Assembly: GCA_015152515.1 (NCBI GenBank)
Contig: SUTV01000003.1
Coordinates: 124,001 to 188,000 of the forward strand
Source of the DNA: Cyanobacteria bacterium SIG29
GTDB lineage: Bacteria; Cyanobacteriota; Vampirovibrionia; Gastranaerophilales; Gastranaerophilaceae
Direction of reading: 5' to 3'
DNA length: 64,000 nt
The notes beneath the pieces are model-generated. The model was not told the origin of the DNA and did not search any database. It saw only the letters and a program-made list of their open reading frames with translations. The number at the start of each line of letters is the position of its first letter. Within the stretch, counting starts at the first letter, position 1. Made by a program: the position numbers and the translations under genes. Shown piece after piece: positions 5,110 through 28,783 of this stretch.

Positions 5110-5995
5110 AATAAACATAACTTTCAAATAAATCTAAAGAAAAATTATTATTTTTTAATTTATTCAAAGCTCTTGCTTCTGTTTGTCTAATACATTCTTT
5201 AGTTACACCATACATTTTCCCAATTTCTTCTAAAGTTTGTTTTTGGAAATTACATAAACCAAATCTTAAAGTTAATACTTTTTGTTCACGGTCTTTTAAA
5301 TTGTTTAACAATTTAACAACTTCTTTTTTCATTGAATCATATTCTATTTGAGATTGAACAGATGCTTTTTTATCTTCAATAATATCAGCCAATCTAACCT
5401 CTGAACCGTTTTGCATTTCATAATCACCTTCTAAAGATAAGGTCTTTTTATAAGCACCTAAATAATTATTAATTTTAGCTTCTTCCATATTCATTTTTTT
5501 AGCTACATCTTTAACTTGAACTTCACAATTAGCATTCTGTTCCATTTCTGCTTTTATCTTTGAATACTTTGATAAAGTTTCTTGAATATAAACAGGAATT
5601 TTTAAAGAATGAGATTGTTCTGATATTGCTTTAAACATAGCTTGTTTAATCCACCAACTAGCATAAGTCGCAAATCTATAACCAAATTTCCAATTGAATT
5701 TATCAACAGCAACCATTAAGCCAATGTTACCTTCTTGAATTAAATCCACCATTGGTAATTTACTTGTATGAATAGCTTTTCTTGCAATTATCAAAACTAA
5801 TTTTAAATTAGCTTTAATCAACTCTTGCTTTGCTTTTTTATCACCAGCTTGCGCTCTTTGCGCTAATTCTTGTTCTTCTTCAGGTGTTAAATTTTTATAT
5901 TTAGAAATTTCTTTTGCATAATCACTAATTTTTGAATCAGAAAATAAAGAAGATTGTAAATTTAACTCAGAATCACAAACACAATTCATAACCAT
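5108..5995 (-). CDS. RNA polymerase sigma-70 family factor (RpoD-like, no region 1.1)
   Basis: 295 residues. It shows a region 1.2-like start (SDYAKEISKYKNLTPEEEQELA), region 2 (NLKLVLIIARK, DLIQEGNIGLMVAVDKF, then FATYASWWIKQAM for -10 recognition), region 3, and a region 4 helix-turn-helix (TLEEIGKMYGVTKECIRQTEARALNKL). It lacks the acidic region 1.1 of large primary sigma factors, so it looks like a group 2/alternative RpoD-type factor; it could still be a compact housekeeping sigma. GGAG lies 9 bases before the ATG. It is followed by its own hairpin terminator and is divergent from the helicase gene. Confidence 0.9.
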   Translation of the reverse strand: MVMNCVCDSELNLQSSLFSDSKISDYAKEISKYKNLTPEEEQELAQRAQAGDKKAKQELIKANLKLVLIIARKAIHTSKLPMVDLIQEGNIGLMVAVDKFNWKFGYRFATYASWWIKQAMFKAISEQSHSLKIPVYIQETLSKYSKIKAEMEQNANCEVQVKDVAKKMNMEEAKINNYLGAYKKTLSLEGDYEMQNGSEVRLADIIEDKKASVQSQIEYDSMKKEVVKLLNNLKDREQKVLTLRFGLCNFQKQTLEEIGKMYGVTKECIRQTEARALNKLKNNNFSLDLFESYVY

Positions 5996-6290
5996 ATTAA
6001 AATACTCCAGCTTAATCTAATACACACAAAGTTACCCACACAAAAATGCATAGGAATAGCACCTAATTCTATAAGAACGGGAAAGAAAGAAAAGAAATTT
6101 TATTTTATCCGAATATATATTTTGTATATCTTTAATATATCACTTTGATTTTTCTTTTTCAATCCTTTTGTAAAGACATGTAAAGTTAAAATTAAAGTTT
6201 TAAGATTTTCTGTAATATATCTTAATTCTTTTTCAATTATAAAAAAGTCAAAAAATGTTATAAAATAAAGATAAAAGAAGAAATAATTAC

Positions 6291-9200
6291 ATGCTAATTA
6301 AGGGTACAACAAAAAACAAAACAAACTATTTAGTTCATAAATATAATGAGCTAATTTCTTGTGGCGTTAATGAAAAAAACATTTTAATTATCACTTTGAA
6401 CTCATTTAAAAAATCTCTTTTTCATAAAAACGCGAAAGTTTTAACATTTCAAGGACTTTGCTATAACGCATTTTTAGATAATAAAAAATACATTGCTTCT
6501 TTAATAAACAACAATGATGAAAATTACGAGCCAAATTTATGCGGATTAGAAATTTCTCAATTCATATTTAAACAAAGCATAAAAGAGGCTGATTTTAGTG
6601 ATTATATTTCTAAAGTCAACTTACTACACCAACTATTTAGAAGATATTCTTTAATAGTTAATAACGATTTATCAAACAAAGAAGTACTTGAACGCTCTAA
6701 ATTTTTAAAAGAAAGTTTTGCACTTGATGCACAAAAAGCAATAGATGATTACAAACTAAAAACTATTCAATATAAGAGTTTTGATTATCTAAGGCAAATG
6801 GCAATATTACCTTCAATTTATAAAAACACAGATTATTTTAAAAATATTGAATATTTAATTGTTGATGATGCAGATGAAATGCCATATGCTTTTTGGCAAT
6901 TCGTTGATGCTATAATGCCAAATTTAAAAGATTATTTTATAGCTTATGATGAAAATGGTTCATCAAGATGTGGTTATTTATGCGCATACAAAAACGGAAT
7001 TAAGGATTTTAAAGAGAATTATTCTCCAACTGAAATTACACTTGAGGACAAAAATTTATTCAACAATGAAGCAGAACTTTTTTATTACAATTTAAAAAAA
7101 GGGGAAAAAACAAAGTTTAACAATATACAATTTAATTCTGGCATACGAAGATTAGATATGTTAGATAAAGTAGTAAAAGAAATTAAAAACCTTATTTCAG
7201 AAGGCGTTAAACCAAATGAAATCGCAATTATTTCACCAATTATTGATGATATTTTATTACAAGCATTTTCAACTCTTAATTACCAAACTATTTCAGGAAA
7301 CGAAAAACTATCAAACATAAGCGAAATTAAACATCTTATTATTCTTTTAAAAATAGTTAATGGAATAGAAGTTAAAGATTATGAAATAAAGGATATTTTA
7401 ATAAATCTATTAAAAATCCCATACAAAAAATGCTTTAACATAATAAAAACTAAAAAATTATCACAAGATAGCATAAATAATGAAAATTATATAAAACTAA
7501 TTAGCACGCTAAATTCACTTCGAAAAACAAAGTATAATTTGTGCGAACAAATAAAAATTTTATGGGAGAACCTAATAAAATCTAACCCTATAAAATATGA
7601 CTTTTTTATGAAAGAAGCGCGTAATTTCGAATTAGCTTTTAATGGAAAAATCGAAAACATACAAGAACAATTTTTAATACAAATAGAAAATAGTGTAATT
7701 AGTGAAAATCCAGCAGAAACAATTTCTATAAACAATAATTGTGTACTCATTGGAACACCTCAAAAAGTTATTGATTATTCACTTCATACGAAATATCAAT
7801 TCTGGCTTGATATTTCAAACAATGAATGGCTAAAAGAAGATACTGGCACACTATATAATGCTTGGGGTTTAAGCAGAGATTTTAACAAAAAAGAATTTAC
7901 CTTTGAAGATAATCTTCTTTTAACAAGAGATAAAGCAGCAAGAATAGTTAGAAAGCTAATGTTCTGCTCAGATAAAGAAATTAAATTTTATTCAAGCCTA
8001 TATGACAACACAGGCAATGAGAATTTTGGCGGGCTCAATGATTTTATTGAAATAGAAATAGCAAACAAAAAACAAAACTTTGAAATTACACCAAGGGCTG
8101 ACCAAAAACCCGTATTAGAATACAAATCTGGTCAAATGGGGATAATGGCTGTTCCAGGAGCAGGTAAAACAACAATTCTTTTAGCCTTGATAACAAAATT
8201 AATAAAAGAAGGAATAAAAAGTGAAAACATTTTTGTTTTAACCTACATGGAATCTGCGGCTAAAAATTTCAAAGAAAGAATAAAATCAGCTCTTCCAGAT
8301 AATATAGACACTCCAAATATATCAACTATTCACGGTTTAGCCTTAAGAATAATTAAAGAAAATTCCAACTTTACAAAAGTTGGATTAGATGACAAATTTG
8401 AAATTTGTGATGACACAACAAAAGAACGAATTATCAAAGAAATTTTAAAAGATGAAGAAAAATTTGATAATTACCTAAGATGTTTATCAATAGTTAAACT
8501 TTCAAACAAGACTTCAATAAAAACAAAACATAAAGAAATCCAAGATTTTTTTGACTTCTATAAAAAATACAATTCGGCATTAAAAGAACAAAATATGATT
8601 GATTATGATGATATGCTTTACTTTGCTGTAAAAATTTTAGAAGAAGACAAAGAAGCGTTAAACTACTATCAAAATTTATGCCAATTTATTATTGAAGATG
8701 AAGCGCAAGATTCAAGTGAAATTCAACAAAGACTATTAAAGCTTTTAAGCGGAAAACATAAAAACCTTGTTCGTTGTGGAGATATTAACCAAGCCATAAC
8801 TTCAACCTTTACAAATAGCGATACTCAAGGGTTCAAAAACTTTTTGAATAACAACAAAAAAGTAGAAATGAATTCTTCTCAAAGATGTTCTAAACCAATA
8901 TATTCATTGGCAAATAAACTAATTAAAACAACATTAAAAGATGAAAATAAAAAACAAGCCTTTTATGAAATTGAAATGATAGGAACAAGCAACAATCCAA
9001 AAACTCAAACCGAGCCTAAATTCTTACTATTTGAAACAACAAAAGATGAAAAAGAATTTATTTTAGAAAAAGTAAAAGAAATTTTAAAAGAAGAAAAAAA
9101 TACATCTATTGCAATTCTTTTAAGATTAAACTCACAAGTTAATGAATACAATGAATTTTTCTTATCACAAGGTATTAAAACAACTGTTAGAACAGACTGT

Positions 9201-22790: not shown

Positions 22791-23489
22791 TTATAACAAT
22801 CCTTCGCAAAGTAAAAATCTACCCATAGGAATAACTTCACAATATTTTGCTAAAGATTGTACAAAACATTCATTTTCACAAAAACCACCTGATAAATATA
22901 TTTTAGAAGGTTTTTTAGCAAAATTCCACGCATTAAAAGCAATACCATGAATAAATTTAGATATTGCACTATTTGCATCAGAACCCTTTGCAATATCATC
23001 CATAATTTTTTCTAAACCAAAAATCCCACAAGTGATAACATATTTTTCATCAGATACTTTTAATTCTTTTACATCAACATTATAAAACTTTAAAAGCATT
23101 TCAATTGTTGCACCAGTTGAGCTTGAACAATTATTATTCCAATCCAAGTCTTTAAACTTTCCATCTTTAAAAGTTGCCCACTTAGAATCACGACTGCCCA
23201 TATCTAAAATAATAGAATCTTCTTCTATTTGTTTTCTAAAGCCTTGAATTAAAGCAATAACTTCATTTTCATAATCTTTTTTATCGTTTAACATACTCAA
23301 AGACATATGACCTGTTGCTTTATCAAATTTAAAATTGATATTTTTTAAACTTGATGAAGGTAAAACATAATAATTCAAACCATTTTCAGTTTTTAAAAGA
23401 TATTGAGAAAATTCCTTCATCAAATTTGAAGAAGTTTTTTCAATAATTTTAGACCAAGTTGTACCAGCATCAAGAACAATATTTGCCAT
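22791..23489 (-). CDS. BadF/HgdC-type 2-hydroxyacyl-CoA dehydratase activase-like ATPase
   Basis: 232 residues. ASKHA-fold ATPase: phosphate-1 LDAGTTWSK at 6-14, phosphate-2 LDMGSRDSKW, and adenosine loop YLSGGF near 198-203. Two cysteines, C121 (NNNCSSSTG) and C154 (VITCGIFG), correspond to the pair that holds the inter-subunit [4Fe-4S] cluster in HgdC-type activases. Such proteins inject a high-energy electron into a dehydratase/reductase partner. The normal CxAGTG is changed to CSSSTG. No dehydratase genes are nearby; the neighbour upstream overlaps by one base (TAATG) and is the likely partner. Confidence 0.78.
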   Translation of the reverse strand: MANIVLDAGTTWSKIIEKTSSNLMKEFSQYLLKTENGLNYYVLPSSSLKNINFKFDKATGHMSLSMLNDKKDYENEVIALIQGFRKQIEEDSIILDMGSRDSKWATFKDGKFKDLDWNNNCSSSTGATIEMLLKFYNVDVKELKVSDEKYVITCGIFGLEKIMDDIAKGSDANSAISKFIHGIAFNAWNFAKKPSKIYLSGGFCENECFVQSLAKYCEVIPMGRFLLCEGLL

Positions 23490-24214
23490 TATCTTAACCT
23501 CAAGAATGCTTCAATTTTAGCTTTAGTTGAATTAGTAATAACATCATCAATATCAATATAAAGCCCATTATATTTATCAGCCAAATATTTAGCCAATTGC
23601 GCTTTTGAACAAAAAGATTGAGAATAAAATACAGTCGGAACATCTTTATCTACAAACATTTCAAGTTCAATATCGGCAGGAGACATTGCTTCAACACATC
23701 TAGTCCAACCATAAAGATGCGTTTCATCTGGAAATAATTCCAAAATAGATAAATCATTTGGAGGCACACCCCAAAAACCAAACTTCGCTTTACAAGGCAT
23801 AACTTCAACATTTTGTTGTTCATAAATTCCTTTTGTAATTAACTCAACCTTTTGACGCAAAGGTAAATTAGATGTTGAAATACTAACATTTCTTTTAAAT
23901 GTTTTTTCCTCAAAAATAGTTGATTCTATTGGATAGCCCATGTCTTTTAATAATTCATAAGCAAACCAACCACTATCGCATTTATCTTTCCCAATCGGTG
24001 CAAGAATCATAAGCAAATCATTTTTATAATGAAAAGCACAATTAATAATATTTTTAATAATAGAACAATATGATTCAGGCAAAACATCTTGTTTCGCAAA
24101 ACCATAATCAATATCAAAATCTACCCATATAGCATTGGGGTACATTTTTTTATATTTATTTATTACCGTTGGATTTGGATAGCCCCAAAATCCTATTATA
24201 TTTTTTTGACTCAT
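23489..24214 (-). CDS. Uncharacterised internally repeated partner of the activase-like ATPase
   Basis: 241 residues from the ATG at 24214; a longer frame from 24250 is possible. No family is recognised with confidence. Two halves begin alike (IGFWGYPNPTVI near the N-terminus and FGFWGVPPNDLSI in the second half), suggesting an internal duplication. Several cysteines (KDKCDSGW, MPCKAK, WTRCVEAM, SQSFCSK) could ligate a cluster. A one-base overlap with the downstream activase indicates obligate co-expression. A TATAAT box 6 bases before the ATG and no Shine-Dalgarno sequence suggest a leaderless start. Confidence 0.65.
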   Translation of the reverse strand: MSQKNIIGFWGYPNPTVINKYKKMYPNAIWVDFDIDYGFAKQDVLPESYCSIIKNIINCAFHYKNDLLMILAPIGKDKCDSGWFAYELLKDMGYPIESTIFEEKTFKRNVSISTSNLPLRQKVELITKGIYEQQNVEVMPCKAKFGFWGVPPNDLSILELFPDETHLYGWTRCVEAMSPADIELEMFVDKDVPTVFYSQSFCSKAQLAKYLADKYNGLYIDIDDVITNSTKAKIEAFLRLR

Positions 24215-24226: not shown

Positions 24227-24258
24227 ATATAAATGATGATTTTTATTCATAAAGCTTG

Positions 24259-25601: not shown

Positions 25602-26070
25602 AATTGGACAAGGTTTTGATATACATAAACTTGTTGAAGGTCGCAATTTAATACTTGGCGGAATAAAAATAGATTATGAAAAAGGTTTATTAGGTCATTC
25701 TGACGCTGATGCTTTACTTCATTCTATCATTGACTCACTTTTAGGCGCGCTAGCTCTAGGAGATATTGGAACACATTTCCCAGATAACGACCCACAATAT
25801 AAAGATATAGATAGCACAATTTTACTTAAAAAAGCATACCAATTAGTAAAAGATAAAGGGTATGTTATCAATAATTTAGATAATACAATTTTTGCCCAAG
25901 CACCTAAAATGAAGCCATATATTCCAGCTATGCAAGAAAATTTAGCTAAAATTTTAGAGCTTGATAAATCTCAAATTTCTATAAAAGCAAAAACTATGGA
26001 AGAACAAGATTCTGTAGGAGAGAAAAAAGCAATTTCTACCCAAAGCATAGTCTTATTAAGAAAAATCTAA
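25594..26070 (+). CDS. ispF: 2-C-methyl-D-erythritol 2,4-cyclodiphosphate synthase
   Basis: 158 residues from the ATG at 25594, preceded by GGAGAAGGAAG. Metal ligands D-x-H appear in GQGFDIHKL, then [31 protein letters not shown] and the C-terminal [20 protein letters not shown]. It cyclises CDP-ME-2-phosphate in the non-mevalonate isoprenoid pathway. Length is normal for the family. The end overlaps the convergent exbD-like gene by four bases (CTAA). Confidence 0.97.
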
Positions 26071-26456
26071 TATTCTGTTATTGAAATATTAGTAACACCA
26101 CTATTTCTAGCTTCATCCATTAATTTAACAACAGCACCATGTGTTGCATTTGGTTGCGTAATAATTAATAAACCATCTGTATTAACTTTTGCTTGTTGAG
26201 AAATTACAGACTGAATAGATTCAACAGATAATTCTTGTTCATCAAGCATATATTTATCATCATCTGTAACTGTAACTTTAATAAGTTTTGAATCTTTTAT
26301 TTCATCTTGAACTTCAATCATATTAGGAACTGCAAGATTTAAGCCTTGTTGGTCTAACAATGGTGCAATAACCATCATTATGATAAGCAAAACCAAAAAT
26401 ATATCTGTTAATGGTGTAATATTAATTTCATTAAATGTTTTTCTATCTCTTGCCAT
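26067..26456 (-). CDS. ExbD/TolR-family motor protein, copy B
   Basis: 129 residues. A short basic N-terminus, one membrane helix (about 17-37) carrying the conserved Asp in [19 protein letters not shown], and a periplasmic domain with [26 protein letters not shown]. With ExbB it uses the proton gradient to energise TonB. Last gene of the tonB-exbB-exbD-exbD set; AAGGAAAA ribosome site. Confidence 0.92.
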
Positions 26457-26468
26457 TATTAGTTTTCC

Positions 26469-26966
26469 TTACTCATCCCAATCTAAATCTTTAGGATTAA
26501 CAGTCGTTTTTTTAGAAACTGGTTTTTGTTGCTCTAATGATTTTTGCTCTTTTTTAGTTAAAGGTTCACCAGCTAAAATCAATTTAGAATATTGCGCACT
26601 TTGAGCAGCTTTCATAATCTTTTGAATTTCACTACTTTTTGTTTGAGTATCAGCTTTAACAACAACCTCTGCTTTTTCTAATTTAGGTTTCAATTCATTA
26701 AGTTCAACCAACAAATTATCAGGAGAAATAGGACGACCATTAATATAATAATTACCTTGTTTTGTCACAGAAATTTCAGCATTTTTCTGTTCAACAGCAA
26801 CACCTGAATTAATTTCTGGAATATTAATATTTTGATCAACCGATTGAAAAGAAGGAGCTATTACCATCATTATGATTAGCAATACCAAAAAGATATCGGT
26901 CAATGGTGTAATATTAATTTCAGTAAAAATACCTTTATTATTGTTATTTGAACTAGAAAATGACAT
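26469..26966 (-). CDS. ExbD/TolR-family motor protein, copy A
   Basis: 165 residues. The N-terminal membrane helix is almost identical to that of copy B ([23 protein letters not shown] with the key Asp), but the periplasmic domain differs and a C-terminal tail of about 35 residues rich in Lys/Gln and acidic residues (ending PKDLDWDE) is added. Two distinct ExbD subunits in one operon may mix in one motor or serve different tasks. Confidence 0.92.
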   Translation of the reverse strand: MSFSSSNNNNKGIFTEINITPLTDIFLVLLIIMMVIAPSFQSVDQNINIPEINSGVAVEQKNAEISVTKQGNYYINGRPISPDNLLVELNELKPKLEKAEVVVKADTQTKSSEIQKIMKAAQSAQYSKLILAGEPLTKKEQKSLEQQKPVSKKTTVNPKDLDWDE

Positions 26967-26975
26967 TTTTTAATC

Positions 26976-27611
26976 CTATACTAATGCGTTTGCTTCTATT
27001 TTTTCTTCTGAGTCAGTAAAGCTCAAGAATAATAATTTAATAAGTTGAAAATCGTCTTCGTATCTTTTAACTGTTGATTGGAATAAGTTATACAAAATAA
27101 CAGCAATAATCGCAACACCAAGACCGAAAGCTGTAGCGATTAACGCAGAACCAATACCCATAGCAACTGCTGCTGATTGATTACCTTGAGAAGCTAAATC
27201 TTGGAATGTATAAAGAATTCTAACTACAGTACCAAATAAACCTAAAAATGGACAAACACCGCCTACTGTACCTAAAATAGTCAAATATTTTTCTAATTTT
27301 CTTGTTGCTAAATTTGCTGAAATATCAAAAGAACGAGAAAAACCTTGTTTTTGTTCTGAAAAAATTCTAACTGCTTCTTCAGAAACTTCACCAATAACAC
27401 CGCCCAATTGAACGCTCAAATTTTTAGCTGAATCCAATCTTCTGTTTACTAATTCAGTTTTTAAAGCTCTAATAAATTTCACAACATCACGTTTGTTTTT
27501 GTTGTAAAAGTTGAATCTGTTAATTGCAACTGCTACAGTCAAAATTGAGCATAACAAGATAGGCAATAATACAGGCCAGTCTAGTTTAATTGAATGTAAT
27601 AATAATTCCAT
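26976..27611 (-). CDS. exbB: ExbB/TolQ/MotA-type proton channel protein
   Basis: 211 residues with three membrane segments: an N-terminal one after residue 12, and two near GTVGGVCPFLGLFGTVVRI and GIGSALIATAFGLGVAIIAVILYN. The GLFGTV and LIATAFGL signatures are those of ExbB/TolQ. It forms the pentameric proton-conducting stator around ExbD. GAGGAAATAA precedes the ATG. It sits between the tonB-like gene and two exbD-like genes, which makes the Ton rather than Tol assignment likely. Confidence 0.92.
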   Translation of the reverse strand: MELLLHSIKLDWPVLLPILLCSILTVAVAINRFNFYNKNKRDVVKFIRALKTELVNRRLDSAKNLSVQLGGVIGEVSEEAVRIFSEQKQGFSRSFDISANLATRKLEKYLTILGTVGGVCPFLGLFGTVVRILYTFQDLASQGNQSAAVAMGIGSALIATAFGLGVAIIAVILYNLFQSTVKRYEDDFQLIKLLFLSFTDSEEKIEANALV

Positions 27612-27631
27612 ATTTATTTCCTCTTTTCTAA

Positions 27632-28783
27632 TTAATATATTCCAAATACGTTGTAATCAAATGTGAATTGAATATCTACACTATTACCCTTAAAGTCAGG
27701 AGGTAATGGTCTAAATGGTGCCGTTAATTTAACTGCATCTAATGCAGCTTTATCAGCAGCAGGTAAACCTGATGAACGATGAACCTTCACATTAAGCAAT
27801 CTGCCATCACGAGCTATTGAGAATAATAAAACTACACGTTTACTTTCATTACCTTTTGGAGGATCCCAATTCATTTTTATACGTCTTTGAAGTTCCTTCA
27901 TATAAGGACCAAAATCAGGTTCTTTTATGGCATCAATACCTGGAGCACCTTTAGGATTTCCCGGACCTGGATTTCCAACATTGCCAGCACCTGAGCCAGT
28001 AGCATTGCTAAATCTACCGCCACCACCAACACTAGAACCAGAGCCACCACCTGAAGTTGTAGGTGAAAAACTTGGCGAAGGACTAGATGAAGCTGAAGCA
28101 CCTGATGATGAGCCAGCACCAACTTTTGGAGCAGCAGTAACTGGTGCTGTTGTAGTTGGTTGAGTTATCTGTGGAATAGATGATTTCGGAATTGGAATAT
28201 TGAAATCAGCCGGCAACTTTGAAGCTGGAGCAGGCGCAACTGGTTTTGGTTGCGGTCTTGGTGCCGGTGCTTTTGGTTTTGGTTGTTCTACAGGTTTTTG
28301 TACTACCGGTTGCGGAGCTGGTTTTTGCACAGCAGGTTGTGGTTTCGCAACAGGCTTTTGAACTACTGGTTTTTTCGCTGGTGGTGGAATTGGTTTTTTC
28401 GCCGGAGCCTTTGGCGCAGCAGTTTGAGGTAAAGATACTGCGCGTTTTGGATCATGTTTTCCACCAGCTTGCGAATTTTTATCAGCCCTATTTTTTGTAT
28501 TTTTATCTATTGGAGGGGCTTCTTTTTCTACAAGTACAAATTCTATATCTTTAGGTTTCATATCTGGTTTTTTGAACAAATCAAAATTAATTCCTAAAAA
28601 TTGTAATATCAAAGAAGATAATATTATAATCAAAACTACTAAAGGATGAAGTATAAGCGCAATTATCAATGCTTTTTCAAAAGAAATTTCTTCTTTATCT
28701 TTTCTAATAACTGCAGGAATTTCATATCTTGAGTTACGAACTCTTTTTGATTTTATATTATCTTCGTTATTAATTACTGACAT
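27632..28783 (-). CDS. tonB: TonB-family energy transducer
   Basis: 383 residues: a cytoplasmic N-terminus, a membrane helix about 38-64, a long Pro/Ala/Lys region (KPVVQKP, KPQPAVQKP type repeats) then a Gly/Ser-rich stretch, and a C-terminal TonB domain (MKELQRRIKMNWDPPKG ... VVLLFSIARDGRLLNVKVHRSSG ... AFRPLPPDFKG). It spans the periplasm and transmits motor force to outer-membrane receptors. No receptor is in this window. The Pro/Ala-rich middle is longer than in E. coli TonB (239 residues in total). Confidence 0.93.
   Translation of the reverse strand: MSVINNEDNIKSKRVRNSRYEIPAVIRKDKEEISFEKALIIALILHPLVVLIIILSSLILQFLGINFDLFKKPDMKPKDIEFVLVEKEAPPIDKNTKNRADKNSQAGGKHDPKRAVSLPQTAAPKAPAKKPIPPPAKKPVVQKPVAKPQPAVQKPAPQPVVQKPVEQPKPKAPAPRPQPKPVAPAPASKLPADFNIPIPKSSIPQITQPTTTAPVTAAPKVGAGSSSGASASSSPSPSFSPTTSGGGSGSSVGGGGRFSNATGSGAGNVGNPGPGNPKGAPGIDAIKEPDFGPYMKELQRRIKMNWDPPKGNESKRVVLLFSIARDGRLLNVKVHRSSGLPAADKAALDAVKLTAPFRPLPPDFKGNSVDIQFTFDYNVFGIY

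Follow-up and report, generated by a model that had tools for sequence, protein, structure and literature searches.

A conserved gene pair of Gastranaerophilales encoding a divergent activase and a two-domain partner with the predicted fold of dehydratase and DCCP subunits

In this study, two overlapping genes of Cyanobacteria bacterium SIG29, encoding an activase-like ATPase and a 241-residue partner, were investigated computationally. They constitute a real and conserved two-gene system, which is a compact form of a known machinery and does not stand outside the dehydratase world. The pair is probably related to the double-cubane-cluster protein (DCCP) and its reductase (DCCP-R), but compact and independent of CoA; ATP would power the transfer of electrons at low potential to a [4Fe-4S] cluster with three invariant cysteines as ligands. 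The gene pair, its conservation, the co-occurrence of its members, both predicted folds and the conservation of the cysteines were established by computation. A preliminary description of the locus had called the ATPase an orphan activase found with its partner instead of dehydratase subunits. The term orphan is misleading: the two genes are a conserved pair, and a second activase and three DUF2229 proteins are encoded elsewhere in the genome. The other phrase is wrong in spirit, since the partner itself has the dehydratase-subunit fold.

The window, which is the whole 64,000-nucleotide stretch analysed, lies on contig 1 of the 1.54 Mb genome, and Candidatus Gastranaerophilales are the close relatives of this genome in the named collection. 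The activase gene (232 aa) occupies positions 22791-23489 and the partner gene (241 aa) positions 23489-24214, both on the minus strand. The stop codon of the partner and the start codon of the activase share one base in the junction TAATG, in agreement with the one-base overlap described previously. A further ATG lies upstream of the partner at 24250, and the start at 24214 is favoured by the relatives. The flanking genes, namely, NUDIX and HAD hydrolases (Pfam) and a priA-like gene (by eye), run on the opposite strand, and the activase and partner therefore stand alone. Elsewhere in the window, at 26067-28783 on the minus strand, two ExbD-like proteins, one ExbB/TolQ-like protein and one proline-rich TonB-like protein are encoded consecutively, as judged by eye.

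The two genes occur together almost without exception. Among 147 relatives, the activase was detected in 86 (E 4e-12 or better), the partner in 86 and both in 85; a larger tally for the activase (97/147) arises because weak matches to other ATPases are counted. The two genomes with a single gene (G092 and G107) carry it at a contig end, where the missing gene would fall off. Across 386 genomes of the phylum, 74 contained the activase, 74 the partner and 73 both, with one gene present in two genomes (the partner only in G449 and the activase only in G407). The two genes lie on the same contig in 54 of the 73 pair-bearing genomes and on separate contigs in the other 19 (8 of genus g8 and 11 of genus g25), and genera g6, g8 and g10 include some species with both genes and others with neither. 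This co-occurrence strongly indicates that the two genes function together whether or not they are adjacent, with the reservation that counts from related genomes are not independent. The genome scan found 429 relatives, and the named ones among the 80 of 429 listed are Gastranaerophilales, Cyanobacteria or Avigastranaerophilus. An adjacent pair is also present in G156, a member of another class, as 1 of 18 genomes of that class. Of the 86 relatives with the partner, 3 (G002, G026 and G028) have a full-length match to HGD-D (PF06050), and the pair therefore normally occurs without canonical dehydratases; genomes lacking 2-hydroxyacyl-CoA dehydratases were the setting in which the preliminary description had proposed to look for it. 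A literature search combining Gastranaerophilales with dehydratase activase returned no paper, and none on the pair was among the papers listed by a broader search.

The ATPase is of the HgdC/BadF kind, as had been proposed. Its predicted model (pLDDT 91.9) matched DCCP-R (Z 20.0), MbdPQ (19.9), HadI (19.6) and HgdC (18.9) over 214-216 residues, followed after the activases by type II pantothenate kinase (Z 16.7). In these model comparisons, DCCP-R is in a near tie with the other activases. The protein carries a DAGTTWSK phosphate motif and a GSRD motif, and it is called a divergent activase-like protein here given scores below the curated family cut-offs for TIGR00241 (48.2 bits, cut-off 125.4) and PF01869 (23.2 bits, cut-off 31.5). 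Its relative in G156 passes the Pfam cut-off (33.9 vs 31.5), and all 45 members of the activase alignment matched TIGR00241 at E <= 0.001. Two activators of known structure, HadI (2-hydroxyisocaproyl-CoA dehydratase) and HgdC (2-hydroxyglutaryl-CoA dehydratase), were matched at E 7e-7 and 1e-6, respectively. The retention of two cluster-type cysteines, claimed earlier, was confirmed by alignment with the cluster cysteines of the solved activases 4eht and 1hux: C121 (codon 23127-23129, minus strand) is kept in 119/119 sequences and C154 (23028-23030, minus strand) in 118/118 with a residue at that position. Both are cluster ligands by homology and sit at helix starts in the model, preceding helices 126-135 and 155-167. 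Two extra conserved cysteines occur in the motif SGGFCENxCF, C204 (118/118) and C208 (116/118); this loop reads GGVAxN in relatives.

The partner is an internally repeated protein. The repeats noted in the preliminary description were found at residues 8-13 (GFWGYP; 24176-24193, minus strand) and 146-151 (GFWGVP; 23762-23779, minus strand), and the N half aligned to the C half with a score of 29.1 that was equalled by 0/200 column shuffles, so that the internal repeat exceeds chance and the proposed duplication is sustained. Known families were matched weakly at best. Within the window, the partner matched shikimate kinase (E 0.036) and HGD-D (E 0.089; 12.8 bits vs a cut-off of 28.4) in Pfam, an HGD-D match at E <= 1 was obtained for 2 of 46 family members, and Pfam otherwise gave scattered weak matches. 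Sequence searches of NCBIfam and PDB gave nothing credible, and a PDB search with the partner profile was also empty. Compared with a dehydratase/DCCP profile, the whole-length score was equalled by 2/150 shuffles, that of the N half (against 15 subunits) by 0/150 and that of the C half alone, which is not significant, by 13/150; the hhalign probability against dehydratase/DCCP subunits was 3.7%. At the sequence level, the likeness to known families is marginal. Sequence homology alone being too weak, the assignment of the partner rests on the predicted folds and the N-half profile.

An AlphaFold2 model of the partner built with 46 relatives (pLDDT 92.6, pTM 0.87) returned four Foldseek matches at E < 0.001, namely, MbdN of 3-methylbenzoyl-CoA reductase (two entries) and DCCP (two entries). 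Structural alignment gave Z scores of 13.8 for BzdN, 13.7 for DCCP (6eno, 231 residues), 13.2 for HadC and 12.9 for MbdN, covering 227-231 of the 241 residues at an rmsd of 3.8-4.0 A, and the top unrelated chain reached Z 6.2. From these fold matches, the partner is therefore a shortened, two-domain subunit of the dehydratase/benzoyl-CoA-reductase/DCCP type, with two alpha/beta domains and without the central helical domain. The internal repeat is consistent with the pseudo-twofold of such subunits: according to the excerpt of PMC11971306 used here, BzdN and BzdO each have similar alpha/beta domains at the N and C termini. The family found is hence the one expected; a family of unrelated function, which had been named in advance as counting against the proposal, was not the outcome. 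The earlier idea of an activase with a new acceptor stands as regards the tight coupling to one partner, but a new kind of acceptor protein is not supported, given its benzoyl-CoA reductase/2-hydroxyacyl-CoA dehydratase/DCCP fold. The same excerpt describes a middle domain of three helices in BzdN and BzdO that helps to form the CoA channel (PMC11971306). This domain comprises approximately 70 residues in BzdN vs one helix at the same place in the partner model, and residues 100 to 144 of the partner correspond to 43-59 connecting residues across all 138 distinct sequences.

The several cysteines mentioned in the preliminary description number six, of which C50, C79, C173 and C202 are conserved among relatives and C59 and C141 are not. 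C50 (codon 24065-24067), C79 (23978-23980) and C202 (23609-23611), all on the minus strand, are each cysteine in 138/138 distinct sequences. The ligands given in the excerpt of PMC11971306 are Cys36/73/100/263/293/327 for the [8Fe-9S] cluster of BzdN and Cys95/128/380 plus water for the [4Fe-4S] cluster of BzdO. In an alignment of 15 dehydratase/DCCP subunits, no cysteine is invariant apart from C78, C108 and C335 of YjiM, which we equate with the proximal-cubane ligand set. The N-half profile comparison places C50 and C79 on YjiM C78 and C108 (BzdN Cys73 and Cys100). C202 is matched to YjiM C335 and BzdN Cys327; it lies in QSFC after strand 3 of the second domain, as Cys327 lies in QKFC (a QxFC motif in both), and the C-half profile alignment agrees with this placement, although this alignment alone is not significant (13/150 shuffles). 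C173 (codon 23696-23698, minus strand) is near a distal-cubane ligand; its position after strand 2 fits BzdN Cys263, and its spacing to the last cysteine (29 vs 34) fits Cys293. The first distal ligand position (YjiM Cys40) is occupied by Gly11, and at most four of the six cysteine ligands of DCCP are present. A double cubane is unlikely in the partner because of this glycine and the loss of one further ligand. The tryptophans of the GFWG loops could occupy the space of the lost sub-cluster, like Trp46 in BzdO.

C173 is usual but dispensable, which bears on the role of the predicted cluster. It is cysteine in 127/138 sequences and lost in 11, and one genus has Ala or Ser at this position in all 9 members seen. 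Three fixed cysteines and one dispensable cysteine are the pattern expected of a catalytic [4Fe-4S] cluster with three cysteine ligands. Alternatively, the partner could be an electron relay whose cluster is fully ligated by C50, C79, C173 and C202 and which hands ATP-energised electrons to a third protein whose gene lies elsewhere. The frequency of the fourth cysteine suits a relay, as do its ligand-like shift by two residues in 5 of those 9 members (GWTRC to GWCRA) and the lack of a consistent operon partner. However, six sequences lack a cysteine at both 171 and 173, whereas the other three cysteines are never lost. K78, W148, W170, R172, E175, E185, Q199 and K204 are also conserved in the partner, and the abundance of invariant polar residues and tryptophans suggests a pocket rather than a relay. 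We therefore regard a relay as unlikely.

Under the preferred reading of a compact DCCP/DCCP-R relative, the cluster type, the electron transfer and the substrate class are what we infer by analogy with the known systems. The activase dimer would hold one [4Fe-4S] cluster between its subunits through C121 and C154 of each. A ferredoxin or flavodoxin would reduce the activase, which would then dock on the partner, and ATP binding and hydrolysis would push single electrons of very low potential into the [4Fe-4S] cluster of the partner. This cluster would sit in the cleft between the two alpha/beta domains, held by C50, C79 and C202; an open fourth iron, or one loosely ligated by C173, would let it bind substrate. 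The substrate should be small and without CoA, because the CoA-channel domain is missing, and the eight residues from K78 to K204 listed above would line its pocket. A bolder version is offered tentatively, with rather less than even confidence. The pair would be among the smallest ATP-driven electron-injection enzymes, a CoA-independent reductase with one substrate-binding [4Fe-4S] cluster on three cysteines, and its substrate in gut Gastranaerophilales would be a small anionic metabolite. It would represent a further step in the series from DCCP (double cubane) through BzdNO (double cubane plus single cluster) to Had (two single clusters).

The remaining activation machinery of the genome was considered as a competing destination for the activase. 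SIG29 has a second, canonical activase of 331 aa with a cysteine-rich tail (169 bits to PF01869; L005:1279-2274, minus strand). Its three DUF2229 proteins are encoded at L118:3179-4252 and 5292-6485 (plus strand) and L004:1447-2571 (minus strand); together, these genes on three contigs are a split CoA-activase-like system. The PF06050 matches of SIG29 are C-terminal only, inside the DUF2229 proteins. The activase of the pair might mainly serve the DUF2229, CoA-activase-like proteins, with the 241-aa protein as an accessory subunit; in favour of this, no activase gene turned up next to the three DUF2229 genes in SIG29. However, the second activase could serve them, relatives without the pair keep C-terminal HGD-D matches of the DUF2229 kind, and the activase and partner occur together in 73 genomes but singly in 2, which makes this arrangement improbable. 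Canonical systems were observed in a few relatives. G028 (L211:3779-6606, plus strand), and also G002 and G026, in the same genus, carry a canonical HGD-D pair with an activase. The adjoining genes resemble those of glycosyltransferases and acyltransferases (by eye), and the encoded enzyme is perhaps a dehydratase that acts in sugar or surface-polymer metabolism. Two genomes of the same class, G129 (L217) and G124 (L218), have a full-length HGD-D match within frames of 722 and 703 aa. A weak activase match in G124 falls within a frame as long as the HGD-D-bearing one, suggesting an activase-dehydratase fusion.

The neighbourhoods of 97 loci gave neither a consistent operon partner nor a substrate hint, and PADLOC returned no match for anti-phage defence. 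The commonest neighbour was a glutamate/aspartate symporter at 27/97 loci (L070, L099, L102 and L198 among them), with some loci being the same contig counted twice; its top NCBIfam model was GltP, under the cut-off. Its association with the pair extends to another family and to both orientations, and the linkage may be ancestral. The symporter was rejected as a functional partner because it is present in 112/147 relatives, many without the pair. In G156, the pair is followed on the other strand by NifU/IscU-like and class-V aminotransferase (IscS-like) genes. Ferritin and desulfoferrodoxin genes adjoin the unlinked activase of G079 (L114:4985-6569, minus strand), three loci (L168, L178 and L181) carry a rubrerythrin gene within a few genes downstream of the pair, and complex-I-type hydrogenase-like subunits occur near the pair in one case. 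These four kinds of neighbours were too scattered to serve as clues.

The IscU/IscS-like genes bear on one further alternative, in which the partner would be a TudS-like sulfur-transfer or desulfurising enzyme whose cluster is kept reduced by the activase. They stand next to the pair in the sole genome found outside the class, and TudS, according to excerpts of PMC11971306 and PMC10611767, has one domain of the fold and binds its [4Fe-4S] cluster through three cysteines, leaving one iron open. However, the IscU/IscS neighbourhood occurs in one genome only, and TudS consists of one domain and is not known to need an activase; we consider this alternative quite improbable.

The pair matters for what a compact version of this machinery could reveal. 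The potentials that activase-driven enzymes attain require nitrogenase-like machinery in other systems. The known activase-driven enzymes with assigned substrates act on CoA esters. If the preferred reading is true, a version lacking the CoA domain would allow the essential parts of the machinery to be tested, along with the ability of the fold to reduce free small molecules. In addition, a role would be assigned to a gene pair conserved across a whole order of gut bacteria, the non-photosynthetic relatives of cyanobacteria, for which the literature searches found no description. The physiological role of DCCP is itself stated as unclear in the excerpt of PMC11971306.

Among the known systems, DCCP:DCCP-R (YjiM/YjiL in E. 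coli, NCBIfam NF040772) likewise consists of one acceptor gene and one activase gene, and its folds are those of the pair (partner Z 13.7, activase Z 20.0). The invariant cysteines of the DCCP family align with C50, C79 and C202, the last by motif and fold position. DCCP has 383-421 aa vs 241 aa in the partner, which lacks the central helical domain, has Gly11 in place of YjiM Cys40 and retains no more than four of the six ligands, and a double cubane is not expected. The class I benzoyl-CoA reductases BzdN/BzdO and MbdN/MbdO share the fold of the partner (Z 13.8 for BzdN and 12.9 for MbdN), and Q199-S-F-C202 resembles Gln324-K-F-Cys327 of BzdN. Unlike BzdN/BzdO, the pair has neither a second subunit type nor a CoA channel domain, and the site of the catalytic His131 of BzdO, three residues after Cys128, is Gly (117) or Ala (21) in the 138 partner sequences. 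The 2-hydroxyacyl-CoA dehydratases HgdABC and HadBCI (PF06050 and PF01869) have the activase family and the subunit fold in common with the pair (HadC Z 13.2, HadI 19.6), but possess two acceptor subunits and a CoA-binding domain, whereas the pair has one acceptor, no such domain and a PF06050 score below the cut-off. TudS, a thiouracil/4-thio-UMP desulfidase, is a small relative with the same fold, in which three cysteines bind a [4Fe-4S] cluster according to the excerpts cited (PMC11971306, PMC10611767); it is a single domain, whereas the partner has two alpha/beta domains and an adjacent ATPase.
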